64,000 bases of DNA, taken from Tenacibaculum soleae. Lineage in GTDB: Bacteria; Bacteroidota; Bacteroidia; Flavobacteriales; Flavobacteriaceae. Below, piece by piece: positions 19,885 to 24,902 of the stretch (positions are counted from its first letter, which is position 1; every line of letters starts with the position of its first letter). Location of the stretch: NCBI RefSeq assembly GCF_001693415.1, contig NZ_MAKX01000001.1, forward strand, positions 762,047 to 826,046, in the 5' to 3' direction. The position numbers were made by a program, and so were the translations under genes. The notes beneath the pieces were generated by a model that was not told the DNA's origin, did no database searches, and saw only the letters and a list, made by a program, of their open reading frames with translations.

Positions 19885-20541
19885 ATGTTTAGCCAGTCAG
19901 AAGAAAATTATATAAAAACCATTTATCATTTAGCAGTAATGTCTGATAAAGGAATTAGTACAAACGCTATTGCTAAAAGTTTAAAAACAAAGGCATCTTC
20001 GGTAACAGATATGATTAAAAAATTATCTGACAAAGAAGTTGTTGTTTATAAGAAATATCAAGGAGTTACGTTAACTGATCTCGGAAAAAAAACGGCAGCG
20101 AATATTATTCGAAAACATCGTTTGTGGGAAGTTTTTTTAGTAGAAAAACTTAATTTTTCTTGGGATGAAGTGCATGAAGTTGCTGAACAATTAGAACATA
20201 TAAAATCACCTAAATTAATAGATGAATTAGATGCTTTATTAGATTTTCCTACACATGATCCACATGGTGATCCGATTCCTGATAAAGAAGGAAATCTACA
20301 AATTATTGAAAAAAGTTTACTTTCGGTTTTAATAAAAGACGAGACGGGTGTTTTAGTTGGCGTAAATGATTCTTCTTCTGAGTTTTTACGTTTTTTAGAC
20401 AAACAAGGTATTGCTTTAGGGCAGCAAATAACAATTATGTACAAAGAACCTTTTGATGATTCTTTTCTAGTGAAAATCAACGGAAAAGAAATGACGATTT
20501 CAAATAAAGTGGCAAACAATATTTATATACAAAAAAATTAA
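19885..20541 (+). CDS. mntR: DtxR/MntR family metal-dependent transcriptional regulator
   Basis: 218 residues in the usual three-part layout: an N-terminal winged helix (SEENYIKTIYHLAV, GISTNAIAKSLKTKASSVTDMIKKL), a metal-binding dimerisation domain (RKHRLWEVFLVEKL, HEVAEQLEHIKSPKLID, DFPTHDPHGDPIPD) and a C-terminal SH3-like FeoA domain (about 150-216). In this family the metal-loaded protein represses uptake genes. It is the first gene of an operon; the next starts 1 base after its stop. The symbol reflects family and context, not a proven metal. Confidence 0.88.
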   Translation: MFSQSEENYIKTIYHLAVMSDKGISTNAIAKSLKTKASSVTDMIKKLSDKEVVVYKKYQGVTLTDLGKKTAANIIRKHRLWEVFLVEKLNFSWDEVHEVAEQLEHIKSPKLIDELDALLDFPTHDPHGDPIPDKEGNLQIIEKSLLSVLIKDETGVLVGVNDSSSEFLRFLDKQGIALGQQITIMYKEPFDDSFLVKINGKEMTISNKVANNIYIQKN

Positions 20542-20542
20542 G

Positions 20543-21454
20543 ATGAAGAAAGTAGCATTAGTATTGATAATCTTATTAGTAGTAAGTTGTGGTAAAAAAG
20601 CAAAAAACAAAAACGGTAAATTAAAAGTAGTTACAACCACTACGATGATTACCGATTTAGTGAAAAATATTGGAGGTGATAAATTAGAGGTTAAAGGTTT
20701 GATGGGTGCAGGAGTAGATCCGCACTTGTATAAAGCTAGCGAAGGCGATGTTTCAAAATTATTTAATGCTGATGTTGTTATCTATAACGGATTACATTTG
20801 GAAGGTAAATTAGAAGAGGTTTTTGAAAAGATGCAACATCAAAATAAAAAAACGATTATAGTTTCTGACATAATTAATAAAAATGATTTAATAAGTTCTG
20901 AATTATTTGCGTCAAATTACGATCCTCATATTTGGTTTGATATTAATAACTGGAGGAAAATAACATTATACGTCGCAGAAAAATTAGCAGAAATAGATAC
21001 TAAAAATGCTGCTTTTTATCAGCAAAACGGGAAAGAATATTTAGACAAACTAGTAGCTTTAAATAAAGAGGTTGAAAGCAAAATAAACGAATTACCAATA
21101 GAGAAAAGAATTTTAGTAACCGCACACGATGCGTTTAATTATTTCGGAAACCAACATCAATTTAAGGTTGTTGGTTTACAAGGATTATCAACAGCAACAG
21201 AAGCTGGTGTTCAGGATGTTCAGAAGTTAGCGCGTTTTATTATAGATACTAATGTAAAAGCAATTTTTGTAGAAAGTTCTGTTCCGAAACGAACTATTGA
21301 AGCTTTGCAAGAAGCTGTAAAATCTAAAAATCAAGAAGTGCTAATTGGTGGAACGTTATATTCTGATGCTTTAGGAAATGCAGGAACAGAAGAAGGAACT
21401 TATATAGGCATGTACAAAGCAAATGTGAATACGATTGTTAACGCATTAAAATAA
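20543..21454 (+). CDS. Metal ABC transporter substrate-binding lipoprotein (ZnuA/TroA type)
   Basis: 303 residues. Lipoprotein signal ends LLVVSCGKK, so the lipid Cys is near residue 16. The cluster A-1/A-9 metal site is visible: His in VDPHLYKAS, His in DPHIWFD, His in [11 protein letters not shown], and Glu/Asp in VESSVPKR and [10 protein letters not shown]. The family binds Mn, Zn or Fe in the periplasm. There is no long His-rich loop like those in Zn-specific ZnuA, which favours Mn or Fe. It begins 1 base after mntR and ends 1 base before the ATPase. Confidence 0.9.
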
Positions 21455-21455
21455 T

Positions 21456-22193
21456 ATGGAAACAAAATACGCAGTAACGGTTGATGATTTAACGGTTGCT
21501 TATAATTACAAGCCGGTACTTTGGGATATTGACTTAGCCATTCCTGAAGGGGTTTTAATGGCTATCGTTGGTCCAAATGGTGCGGGTAAATCTACCTTGA
21601 TAAAATCTATTTTAGGAATTATAAAACCCATTGCAGGAAGTGTTTCTATCTATGGGAAACAATATGATAAACAACGAAAATTAGTTGCTTATGTTCCGCA
21701 AAAAGGAAGTGTAGATTGGGATTTTCCTACCACAGCTTTAGATGTTGTTATGATGGGAACTTATGGAAGTTTAGGTTGGATAAAACGACCAGGGAAATCA
21801 CAAAAAAAAACAGCTTTAGAAGCGCTTGAAAAAGTAGGGATGCTAGCTTTTAAAAGTCGACAAATTTCGCAACTTTCAGGTGGGCAACAACAACGTGTTT
21901 TTTTAGCTAGAGCATTGGCACAAGATGCTTCCATCTATTTTATGGATGAACCTTTTCAGGGAGTAGATGCAACTACAGAAATTACTATTATCAATATTTT
22001 AAAAGAATTACGAAAAGCAGGAAAAACAGTAGTTGTAGTGCATCACGATTTGCAAACCGTTCCTGAATATTTTGATTGGGTAACTTTTTTAAATGTAAAG
22101 AAGATTGCAACAGGTCCTGTAAAAGAAATTTTTAACGATGATAATCTAACGAAAACATACGGAATTAACTATAAAGTAAGTGTACAGCAGTAA
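21456..22193 (+). CDS. Metal ABC transporter ATP-binding protein
   Basis: 245 residues. Walker [10 protein letters not shown] near 39-47, signature LSGGQQQR near 145, Walker [13 protein letters not shown] and the switch His in VVVHHDLQ. This is the nucleotide-binding subunit of the Mn/Zn/Fe importer (MntB/ZnuC class). It lies directly after the binding protein; the permeases follow after an inserted four-helix-bundle gene. Confidence 0.92.
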
Positions 22194-22234
22194 GTTTTTA
22201 GTAAGTAGTAGTTAGAAAAGAAAAAATCAATAAG

Positions 22235-22612
22235 ATGAAAGAAATAAAGTTCAAGTTTGAAGATTTGAAAGTGTATCAAAAGGCACTTGAATTTGTCGAC
22301 TTTTCTTATGAAATATCAAATAATTTTCCAGATATAGAACGTTTTGGATTGAAGTCTCAATTTAATAGAGCTGCTGTTTCTATTGCATTAAACATTGCTG
22401 AAGGTTCTGCAGATACAGACAAACAGTTTAATAGGTTTTTACAAATAGCACTAGGTTCTACAAATGAATGTGTAGTTTGTATTTCGGTTGCAAAAAGGCA
22501 AAAATTTATTTCTGAAAAGTCTGAAAATGAGATTCGTGAAAAACTAGAAGAACTTTCAAAGATGATTATAGGTTTGCAAAAATATTTACGTAACAAAAAT
22601 ACTAACCTTTAA
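22235..22612 (+). CDS. Four-helix-bundle protein (23S rRNA-intervening-sequence protein family)
   Basis: 125 residues with the family signature: FEDLKVYQKALEFVDFSYEISNNFP, FGLKSQFNRAAVSIALNIAEGSA and the FLQIALGSTNEC helix. These small proteins form pentamers of helical bundles and turn up scattered in intergenic or rRNA positions across Bacteroidetes; their own role is unknown. Here it sits inside a metal ABC operon, between ATPase and permease, where such a gene is not expected. Its flanks are short repeats of TAG/GAC type (AGTAAGTAGTAGTTAG before, CTAACGACTATCGAC after). Its TAA is in frame with the following permease. Confidence 0.88.
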   Translation: MKEIKFKFEDLKVYQKALEFVDFSYEISNNFPDIERFGLKSQFNRAAVSIALNIAEGSADTDKQFNRFLQIALGSTNECVVCISVAKRQKFISEKSENEIREKLEELSKMIIGLQKYLRNKNTNL

Positions 22613-22624
22613 AAACTAACGACT

Positions 22625-23749
22625 ATCGACTTTACTGAATATTTTAAACTCGTTTTTACAGATTATACACTTCGAACAATCACTATTGGTACTGCAATTT
22701 TAGGTGCTATTTGTGGTATGCTAGGTAGTTTTGCGGTGTTAAGAAAACAAAGTTTATTAGGCGACGCAATTTCACACGCATCATTACCTGGTATTGCTAT
22801 TGCGTTTTTAATTACAGGGACAAAAGATACTAATATTTTATTGTTAGGCGCCCTGATAAGTGGATTAATCGGAGCTTTTTGGGTACGTGGAATTGTAAAA
22901 AACACACATTTAAAAACAGATACTGCTTTAGGATTGATTCTTTCTGTTTTCTTCGGATTCGGAATGTTATTGTTAACTTTTATTCAAAAATTACCAAATG
23001 CAAATCAATCAGGTTTAGATAAATTTTTATTTGGTCAGGCAGCAACATTGTTAATTAAAGATGTTTGGTTTATGACAGTAGTTACAGCTATTTGTTTAGC
23101 GGTATTATTGCTATTCTGGAAAGAACTTAAACTCTTATTATTTGATGCAGATTATGCAAAAACCTTAGGTTTTAATACAAAATTTATAGATACTCTAATT
23201 ACAAGTTTTATTGTCTTAGCAATTGTTTTGGGTTTGCAAACAGTGGGTGTTGTTTTAATGAGTGCCATGTTGTTGGCGCCAGCAGCAGCAGCACGTCAAT
23301 GGACAAATAGTTTAAGTACCATGGTTGTTTTAGCTGCTATTTTTGGTTTGTTAGCAGGTGTTGTTGGTACTGGTATTAGTGCAAGTCAATCAAATTTATC
23401 TACGGGGCCAGTAATTGTATTAGTTGCTGCAGTATTTGTAGTGTTTTCATTTGTTTTTTCACCTTCCAGAGGTTTGCTTTTTCGTCAGATTCGTTTTTTA
23501 AAAAACAGGCGCGATATACAACTGCATAAAACCTTATCCTTTATGTTTGATTTGGTAAAGACACACGAAGATAAATCCCATCCGCATGCGGTAAAAATTT
23601 TAAATAATTTTCAAGGATATACAAGAGGAACTTTAAAAAAATTAGAAGAGAAAGAATATATAAGAGTACAAGGTAAAATGTGGTCTATGACGGAAGAAGG
23701 ATATCAGTTTGCAGGTAATTTATATAATCAACATATAGAAAATGAGTAG
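22625..23749 (+). CDS. Metal ABC transporter permease with winged-helix tail; start codon abnormal
   Basis: ABC-3 family permease. The TM1 homology (DFTEYFKLVFTDYTLRTITIGTAILGAI) is encoded from about 22628, upstream of the first ATG (22718). Between the in-frame TAA at 22610 and 22718 there is no ATG, GTG or TTG; an ATC at 22625 sits where the start should be. From 22625 the protein is 374 residues; from 22718 it is 343 and loses most of TM1. Motifs SLLGDAISHASLPGIAIAF and SAMLLAPAAAARQW fit the family. The last 100 residues (TRGTLKKLEEKEYIRVQGKMWSMTEEGYQFA) look like a winged helix. Overlaps the next permease by 8 bases. Confidence 0.8.
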   Translation: MDFTEYFKLVFTDYTLRTITIGTAILGAICGMLGSFAVLRKQSLLGDAISHASLPGIAIAFLITGTKDTNILLLGALISGLIGAFWVRGIVKNTHLKTDTALGLILSVFFGFGMLLLTFIQKLPNANQSGLDKFLFGQAATLLIKDVWFMTVVTAICLAVLLLFWKELKLLLFDADYAKTLGFNTKFIDTLITSFIVLAIVLGLQTVGVVLMSAMLLAPAAAARQWTNSLSTMVVLAAIFGLLAGVVGTGISASQSNLSTGPVIVLVAAVFVVFSFVFSPSRGLLFRQIRFLKNRRDIQLHKTLSFMFDLVKTHEDKSHPHAVKILNNFQGYTRGTLKKLEEKEYIRVQGKMWSMTEEGYQFAGNLYNQHIENE

Positions 23750-24902
23750 TGCTCAGATAGAAATACAATTAATAGCAAGTTTAGTAGCAGTAGCTTGTGC
23801 AATACCTGGTGTGTTTTTGGTGTTGCGAAAAATGGCCTTAATTAGTGATGCTATAAGTCATTCGATTTTACCAGGTTTGGTAGTAGGTTTTTTTATTACA
23901 CATGATTTAAATTCTCCTTTATTAATTTTAATGGGAGCTTTATCAGGAATTTTAACCGTTGTTTTGGTAGAATATATTCAGAAAACAAAATTAGTAAAAG
24001 AAGATACAGCTATTGGTTTAGTATTTCCGGCATTGTTTAGTATTGGTGTACTTTTGATATCTAAAAATGCAAACGACGTTCATTTAGATGTTGATGCTGT
24101 TTTATTGGGTGAATTAGCTTTCGCGCCGTTTGATAGATTGATGATTAACGGAACAGATATTGGGCCTAAATCATTATGGATTATAGGAACAATATTAGCA
24201 ATTACCTTAAGTCTTTTAATTACTTTTTTTAAAGAGTTAAAAGTAAGTACATTCGATGCAGGTTTAACAACCGCTTTAGGTTTTTCGCCAATTGTAATTC
24301 ACTACGGATTAATGAGTGTAGCTTCGGTAACAACTGTAGGAGCTTTTGATGCAGTCGGAGCAATATTAGTTGTCGCTCTAATGATTGCGCCAGCAGCCAC
24401 CGCTTATTTATTAACGAATGATTTAACGAAAATGTTAGTTTTTTCAGGCCTATTTGGTGTGTTTTCGGCCATTTCGGGTTATTGGGTAGCGCATTTGTTA
24501 GATGCTTCTATATCAGGATCGATGATTAGTATGCTTGGGTTGATTTTCTTTTTTGTGTATTTATTAGCGCCCAATAGAGGATTAATTTCAGTAATTTACC
24601 GAAACAGGCAGCAACAAAAAGAAGTGCAATTACTTACTTTTTTGTTACATTTAAATAATCATACCGAAAAAAGAGAAAGACATATTAATCATTTAAATGA
24701 ACATATAAATTGGCATAAAATTAAAGCAAAATCGGTAGTAGATTTAGCAGAGAAAAATAATATGATTCTTATTGAAAACCAAATTATATCACTTACCCAA
24801 AAAGGAAAAGCTTTTACAGAAAAAGCAATAGATTACATAATAACAAACGATGATTCTAAAATTGAATCGATGAAAAAAGATTTTTTCTTATTTAGAGGAT
24901 AA
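23742..24902 (+). CDS. Metal ABC transporter permease, second subunit, with cytosolic winged-helix tail
   Basis: 386 residues. The ABC-3 core (LRKMALISDAISHSILPGLVVGFF, GAFDAVGAILVVALMIAPAATAYLL) has about eight or nine transmembrane helices. Residues from about 285 to the end form a charged cytosolic tail (VVDLAEKNNMILIENQIISLTQKGKAFTEKA) that resembles a winged helix. With the preceding gene it would make the transmembrane pore. It has a normal ATG overlapping the previous stop (ATGAGTAG). Confidence 0.88.
   Translation: MSSAQIEIQLIASLVAVACAIPGVFLVLRKMALISDAISHSILPGLVVGFFITHDLNSPLLILMGALSGILTVVLVEYIQKTKLVKEDTAIGLVFPALFSIGVLLISKNANDVHLDVDAVLLGELAFAPFDRLMINGTDIGPKSLWIIGTILAITLSLLITFFKELKVSTFDAGLTTALGFSPIVIHYGLMSVASVTTVGAFDAVGAILVVALMIAPAATAYLLTNDLTKMLVFSGLFGVFSAISGYWVAHLLDASISGSMISMLGLIFFFVYLLAPNRGLISVIYRNRQQQKEVQLLTFLLHLNNHTEKRERHINHLNEHINWHKIKAKSVVDLAEKNNMILIENQIISLTQKGKAFTEKAIDYIITNDDSKIESMKKDFFLFRG

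Follow-up and report, generated by a model that had tools for sequence, protein, structure and literature searches.

The window analysed here, a stretch of 64,000 nucleotides from Tenacibaculum soleae, contains a metal-uptake operon whose genes and junction features are collected in Table 1. Permease 1 is identified as an ABC-3 metal permease by a PF00950 score of 241.1 bits (versus a gathering cut-off of 20.1), and carries a C-terminal extension past the ABC-3 domain; its AlphaFold model, with a mean pLDDT of 52, was too weak to be used. The four-helix-bundle gene that precedes it belongs to the 23S rRNA intervening-sequence-protein family (PF05635, 114.3 bits versus a gathering cut-off of 33.8). 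This gene is the single PF05635 match in the window's genome, and is located between ABC genes rather than inside a 23S rRNA gene. In the minimum free energy structure of the junction RNA, the left flank of the insert is paired with the stretch around the ATC listed in Table 1. A conserved junction RNA was considered and rejected, as the stability was not above that of shuffles (z 0.83) and an Rfam scan of 22100-22900 gave no match at E<=1.

Table 1. Features of the metal-uptake operon and of the ATPase-permease junction in the window
Feature	Position	Strand	Basis or remark
DtxR-type repressor gene	19885-20541	+	first gene of metal-uptake operon
ZnuA-type binding protein gene	20543-21454	+	metal-uptake operon
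ABC ATPase of metal operon	21456-22193	+	PF00005
Left flank of four-helix insert	22194-22215	+	sequence; flanks compared over 22 loci
Four-helix-bundle gene, 23S rRNA intervening-sequence-protein family	22235-22612	+	PF05635 E 3.9e-33, TIGR02436 E 1.9e-30
TAA of four-helix gene (22610-22612) and last 12 nt of permease leader	22610-22624	+	
ATC, proposed start codon of permease 1	22625-22627	+	aligned to ATG of relatives
ABC-3 metal permease 1	22625-23749	+	PF00950 E 1.8e-71; 374 residues if ATC-started
First in-frame ATG of permease 1 frame	22718-22720	+	judged not main start
ABC-3 permease 2	23742-24902	+	PF00950; ATG start overlaps permease 1 end; control gene

The reading frame of permease 1 (22613-23749) has no ATG, GTG or TTG among codons 22613-22717, and its first ATG stands at 22718. 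An earlier note, made from the letters of this DNA alone, had pointed both to this lack and to permease homology upstream of 22718. Both points hold, the PF00950 match beginning at residue 19 of the frame, 17 residues ahead of Met 22718. As that note had suggested, close relatives free of the insert were aligned and sister strains inspected. In the insert-free relatives, the ATPase stop overlaps the permease start (TAATG), and their ATG aligns with the ATC at 22625. The nearest named relatives are Tenacibaculum, with the T. haliotis permease being 96% identical (among the best 80 of 553 matches). T. haliotis (L023/L044) and Tenacibaculum sp. AHE14PA (L024/L049) also have ATC at this junction, where each likewise carries a four-helix gene. 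Since the ATC is shared by two sister species, it is not a sequencing error. Three ways of making the permease had been envisaged in the note, namely initiation at the ATC, readthrough of the preceding stop codon, and truncation from 22718; the first of these fared best, while the other two found little support.

Loci were gathered from a genus group (records named Tenacibaculum and Polaribacter; 166 genomes, 32 permease matches at E<=1e-60), a family search (397 genomes, 148 permease matches at E<=1e-100) and a named collection, of which the best 80 of 553 matches were used. All 32 genus-group and all 148 family matches are included in the locus set. A total of 259 loci were compared, and removal of 44 duplicates left 215 distinct loci; L001 and L011-L022 were excluded, being something other than this permease. 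For 26 loci, including two ATC loci, L064 (+2) and L123 (-1), the start offset was assigned manually on the N-terminal alignment. Matches outside the family showed 76% (G562) and 60% (G680) identity, with the others, among the matches listed, at 32-46%; the locus counts include no order-level relatives from outside the family.

At the start position, the 215 distinct loci carry ATG (163), ATC (24), ATA (22), GTG (3) or TTG (3), and never ATT. Polaribacter irgensii (L060) is one of the ATC carriers. A near-AUG codon, ATC or ATA, thus stands exactly at the homologous start in 46 of the 215 loci, and its occurrence at one single position makes this more than chance. In 41 of the 46, the stretch from the preceding in-frame stop to the ATC/ATA contains no ATG, GTG or TTG codon, and in the other five (L096, L099, L117, L219 and L229) an upstream canonical codon could serve. 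A "G" comes after 43 of the 46 codons. Perhaps for that reason, ATT is never used, as this "G" would turn it into an out-of-frame TTG, but this is an idea only.

A looser test, for a canonical codon in the vicinity of the start, was applied to permease 1 and to four further genes of the operon. For permease 1, no such codon was present in 45 of the 215 loci; L219, with TTG two codons upstream, counts as canonical here but as ATC in the main count. Permease 2 begins with ATG wherever it is present (105 of 105 loci). For the binding protein, a canonical codon lies near the start in 163 of 164 loci and farther upstream in the remaining one, while the ATPase has one near its start in 195 loci and, in 16 (e.g., L071, L074, L079, L125 and L146), a nearest ATG or GTG that lies 9-20 codons upstream of the window's start, with none lacking. 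The repressor start was canonical in 13 of 13 testable loci. Sequence-poor loci were skipped in this test, 42 in the case of the binding protein, 2 in that of the ATPase and 19 of 32 in that of the repressor.

The codons that follow ATC/ATA are clearly constrained. Over the first 30 codons, the nearest ATC/ATA pairs gave a pooled pS of 0.58 and pN of 0.086, although many of the compared pairs need not share an ATC/ATA ancestor and some of the divergence may predate the ATC/ATA state. Changes at third positions in these codons numbered 468, versus 151 and 45 at the other two. The comparison excluded pairs with a DNA distance >25% as well as any pair that involved L064 or L123. The pN of this segment is about twice that of the remainder of the gene (0.040). 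Several residues, including E5, Y6, D13, Y14, T15, L16, R17 and T18, do not vary among 21 relatives. The codons after ATC/ATA are, by these sequence comparisons, under purifying selection. A permease truncated to start at Met 22718 would accord with 22718 being the first canonical start, and 27 of the 46 ATC/ATA loci have an ATG, at +31, as their next canonical codon. Nonetheless, the invariant residues, the selected codons and the first 17 residues of the ABC-3 match would all lie ahead of that start, and a run of A in the leader is in register with the ATC/ATA codon (see below), so a truncated product appears very improbable. Initiation at AUC/AUA itself is, on the contrary, highly probable; ribosomes would then initiate there with fMet.

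Another possibility is that ribosomes read through the TAA and that a four-helix/permease fusion supplies the permease. The earlier note was right that the two genes share one frame in the window, where TAA and four sense codons precede the ATC. Where a four-helix gene precedes ATC/ATA (13 loci), however, the two are in phase only 7 times, and the remaining 32 of the 45 separated ATC/ATA loci lack such a gene altogether. In addition, the gap from the ATPase leaves remainders of 0, 1 and 2 on division by 3 in 14, 17 and 14 loci, and L010 has a second in-frame stop (TAG) ahead of the ATC. Supply of the permease by readthrough is therefore scarcely credible. The stop of the four-helix gene lies 15-16 nt upstream of the ATC/ATA in 10 of the 13 loci, and coupling to the insert gene could therefore contribute.

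The earlier note had also suggested that the insert overwrote the "G" of the original ATG, in which case the ATC would be a scar that happens to work. The window, T. haliotis and AHE14PA share the insert and the ATC, their nearest canonical-start relatives have TAATG, and the right flank of the insert runs directly up to the start codon. Moreover, the ATC/ATA-linked four-helix genes (13, plus one linked to TTG) cluster together in a tree of junction copies, and still cluster, with one outsider and a support of 94, when 20 further copies are added. As a general cause, overwriting fails, because 32 of the 45 separated ATC/ATA loci lack a four-helix gene, and 9 of the 22 loci that have one here keep ATG or TTG. 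Four-helix genes elsewhere tell against it as well. Of the 20 closest copies outside this junction, 11 (L331-L333, L335-L339, L342, L343 and L346) are followed immediately by an RND efflux gene whose first in-frame start is ATG in every case, overlapping the four-helix stop as TAATG in two; PF00873 was confirmed for one of these efflux genes, and the rest were assigned by the same N-terminal motif. Furthermore, L038-L042 (two of them named Polaribacter) keep the ATC though their spacers vary from 113 to 361 nt. A working scar is thus an improbable account of the ATC. In the lineage of the window, the insertion and the change from ATG to ATC may nevertheless have been a single event.

All ATC/ATA loci with an ATPase gap have a permease gene separated from the ATPase gene. 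No ATC/ATA was found in the 81 loci with a gap of <=12 nt from the ATPase stop, versus 45 in the 132 loci with larger gaps (Fisher p 2e-11, uncorrected for relatedness). Canonical and ATC/ATA starts, respectively, numbered 81 and 0 at gaps of <=12 nt, 24 and 5 at 13-60 nt, 63 and 40 at >60 nt, and 1 and 1 in the two loci for which the ATPase gap is absent. On independent pairs, the link between separation and ATC/ATA ran in one direction only (4.1 versus 0.0 of 16; median p 0.125). On a tree of permease and ATPase DNA, the ATC/ATA state requires at least 30 changes, or at least 23 with branches of <0.95 support collapsed, with 45 or 31 changes for separation and 17 or 16 for the four-helix gene on the same tree; these counts derive from FastTree gene trees and could be inflated by exchange of the junction between lineages.

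The sequence context of the start differs between the two classes. In F. johnsoniae, initiation is favoured by low structure and by A at -14 to -11 (above all -12 and -13), -6, -3 and 0 (PMC6847099), and an A-run at -14 to -10 of the window leader sits on this published Flavobacterium signal. The frequency of A at -14 to -11 is 0.80 in ATC/ATA leaders versus 0.33 in separated canonical loci and 0.65 in binding-protein leaders; over -14 to -10, ATPase leaders gave 0.47 versus 0.75. The value of 0.80 is the highest among shifts from -12 to +8, and in the 23 ATC/ATA loci without a four-helix gene or repeat tail the A-run reaches 0.82 both at shift 0 and at +1, so that the A-run of ATC/ATA leaders peaks within 1 nt of the expected register. 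When folded with a masked start codon, ATC/ATA leaders have a median energy of -0.17 kcal/mol, and those of separated canonical loci one of -3.90 kcal/mol. Leader features predicted the start class with a cross-validated AUC value of 0.94 (n=132, uncorrected for relatedness). Over 19 independent pairs, the stronger leader (A-run plus low structure) went with ATC/ATA in a mean of 13.8 and against it in 0.1 (median p 1e-4); the median p was 2e-4 for the A-run alone and 0.002 for structure alone. There are exceptions, a strong A-run being missing in 6 of 45 ATC/ATA loci and present in 26 of 87 separated canonical loci.

A second gene shows the same pairing. The start of infC is ATA in all 29 genus-group genomes with a match (30 searched; L351-L379), 28 of which have no canonical codon upstream in frame, and the A-run of its leader is 0.88. 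The Ile codon two after the start drifts among ATT (16), ATA (10) and ATC (3). infC is expected to be essential. Since it must be translated, a weak codon on a strong leader occurs here in a gene that needs translation.

The start position, its recurrence and specificity, the selection downstream and the leader-codon link can be read directly from the sequences. The reading we prefer, to which we assign a rough probability of 0.78, is that permease 1 is translated from AUC at 22625, a weak codon placed behind a strong leader, an arrangement that would have arisen repeatedly following the loss of coupling to the ATPase. In the relatives with TAATG, the permease start overlaps the ATPase stop, and its translation therefore probably depends on ribosomes that finish the ATPase. 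In a study on E. coli, a spacing of 38 nt cut termination-reinitiation by 80-90% in two gene pairs and completely in a third (PMC10666635), and loss of the -1 overlap should likewise weaken or abolish it. In many lineages of the Flavobacteriaceae, DNA would have entered between the two genes (here, the four-helix gene and its flanks), after which the permease would need a ribosome entry of its own. A strong new leader combined with AUG would raise permease synthesis. Where the leader was A-rich and unstructured, and hence strong, the start would mostly have become a weak AUC or AUA; where it was structured and poor in A, AUG would mostly have been kept. The S. aureus AUA and AUU starts give about 10% of the activity of AUG, and up to 30% for one gene in rich medium (PMC13009471). 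Permease output would thus be low, and to keep it low is probably the purpose of the weak codon.

Whether the pairing of leader and codon was itself selected is a separate matter. AUC/AUA starts might be mere drift tolerated on strong A-rich leaders, with the permease level unselected, and the leader-codon link would be expected under such tolerance too. Drift, however, would not readily confine these starts to 46 permease 1 loci versus none in the permease 2, ATPase and binding-protein genes tested, nor yield 24 ATC and no ATT in genes whose Ile codons are 62% ATT. Moreover, three Tenacibaculum species, and likewise L038-L042, retain the ATC although silent changes have accumulated around it. 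We regard drift as rather unlikely, and lean modestly towards compensation, in which the pairing of leader and codon would have been selected to hold permease output roughly constant. By a weak start and a strong leader, bacteria may thereby set the amount of permease. A more speculative extension, which we hold as doubtful, is that AUC/AUA places permease 1 and infC in one IF3-sensed regulon, so that their outputs would rise together when free IF3 is scarce or altered in activity, and that different lineages would reach the same permease output by either a weak codon with a strong leader or AUG with a weak leader.

The ATPase-permease junction takes many unrelated inserts across the family, including unclassified ORFs. 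Besides the four-helix gene, which is present in 13 of the 45 separated ATC/ATA loci, genes in the gap encode an isochorismatase domain (L088, ATC), DUF3843 (L099, ATC), and GNAT and glyoxalase domains (L111 and L122, both ATG); 4 of the 8 inserted ORFs scanned had no Pfam match. A first tree had placed the 22 junction copies of the four-helix gene in one clade, suggesting a single site-specific lineage. Its comparison set, however, contained distant copies only; once the 20 closest copies from outside the junction are included, the junction group requires five changes, and the claim was dropped. Distances among four-helix genes and among permeases were correlated over 19 loci (Spearman 0.49; L222, L223 and L251 dropped), with 3 of 500 permutations as high, which is suggestive of co-inheritance.

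Repeats are frequent around these genes. Left flanks of four-helix genes can be arrays of a TTAGTGG heptamer (e.g., L219, L194 and L081), and right flanks carry CTAACCTCT/CTAACCACT-like repeats, as if marking the ends of an element. Heptamer-like left-flank repeats face reverse-complement-like repeats on the right flank in some related loci, and flank complementarity beats all 100 shuffles in some (e.g., L113, L248, L223 and L064); the flanks in the window scored 10 versus a shuffle maximum of 13, with no excess over shuffles. In several separated ATG loci (e.g., L092, L094, L103, L105 and L115), a palindrome ending in GCAGGAATT or similar lies directly 5' of the ATG, where it likely forms a hairpin adjoining the start codon. 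Several of the 16 ATPase genes with a more distant start codon contain in-frame palindromic CCTGC..GCAGG-like repeats near the N-terminus.

Near-AUG AUA and AUU starts are already known from single bacterial genes. Here, one transporter gene appears to have gained AUC/AUA repeatedly within one family, among the loci compared only where it stands apart from its upstream partner, and mostly on leaders bearing the strongest initiation signals known for bacteria without Shine-Dalgarno sequences. Among the matches listed in a search of titles and abstract openings of the open-access literature, nothing was found on this gene or on AUC/AUA starts in flavobacteria. The permease 1 loci are ready natural variants for testing the trade-off between leader and start codon and, if lineages do reach the same output by the two routes named above, the operon would amount to a set of natural experiments on the homeostasis of initiation rates. 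Gene callers restricted to ATG, GTG and TTG would, if initiation at these codons is true, shorten these permeases.

The infC gene of E. coli starts with AUU, and its pcnB gene reportedly does as well. Such starts are held to limit output and are modulated by IF3. The permease 1 start resembles them in being a weak near-AUG codon that differs in the third base, and may likewise limit output and respond to IF3. It differs in that the gene encodes a transporter subunit inside an operon, that AUC is used as well as AUA, that no Shine-Dalgarno sequence is involved, and that the state appears to have been gained many times in one family, only at separated junctions. S. aureus also starts infC with AUA, and has further weak starts in cvfC1 (AUU), ccpN (AUA) and citZ (AUA). 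The conserved cases among these last three likewise combine a weak start with a strong ribosome-recruiting leader, but there the leader is an extended Shine-Dalgarno sequence, whereas that of permease 1 is of the A-rich, unstructured Flavobacterium type (PMC13009471). In Streptomyces, a GTC start of sigR is repressed by IF3; it sets the stoichiometry of an operon product, as the permease 1 start may do, but it is a different codon, in the gene of a regulatory sigma factor and in another phylum (PMC5472188). The insert gene of the window is a clear member of the 23S rRNA intervening-sequence proteins (PF05635), but stands at an operon junction instead of in 23S rRNA. Finally, the TAATG of the relatives is the typical -1 overlap of subunit genes described for termination-reinitiation (PMC10666635), whereas the separated loci no longer have this overlap and in many cases show a weak start codon in its place.
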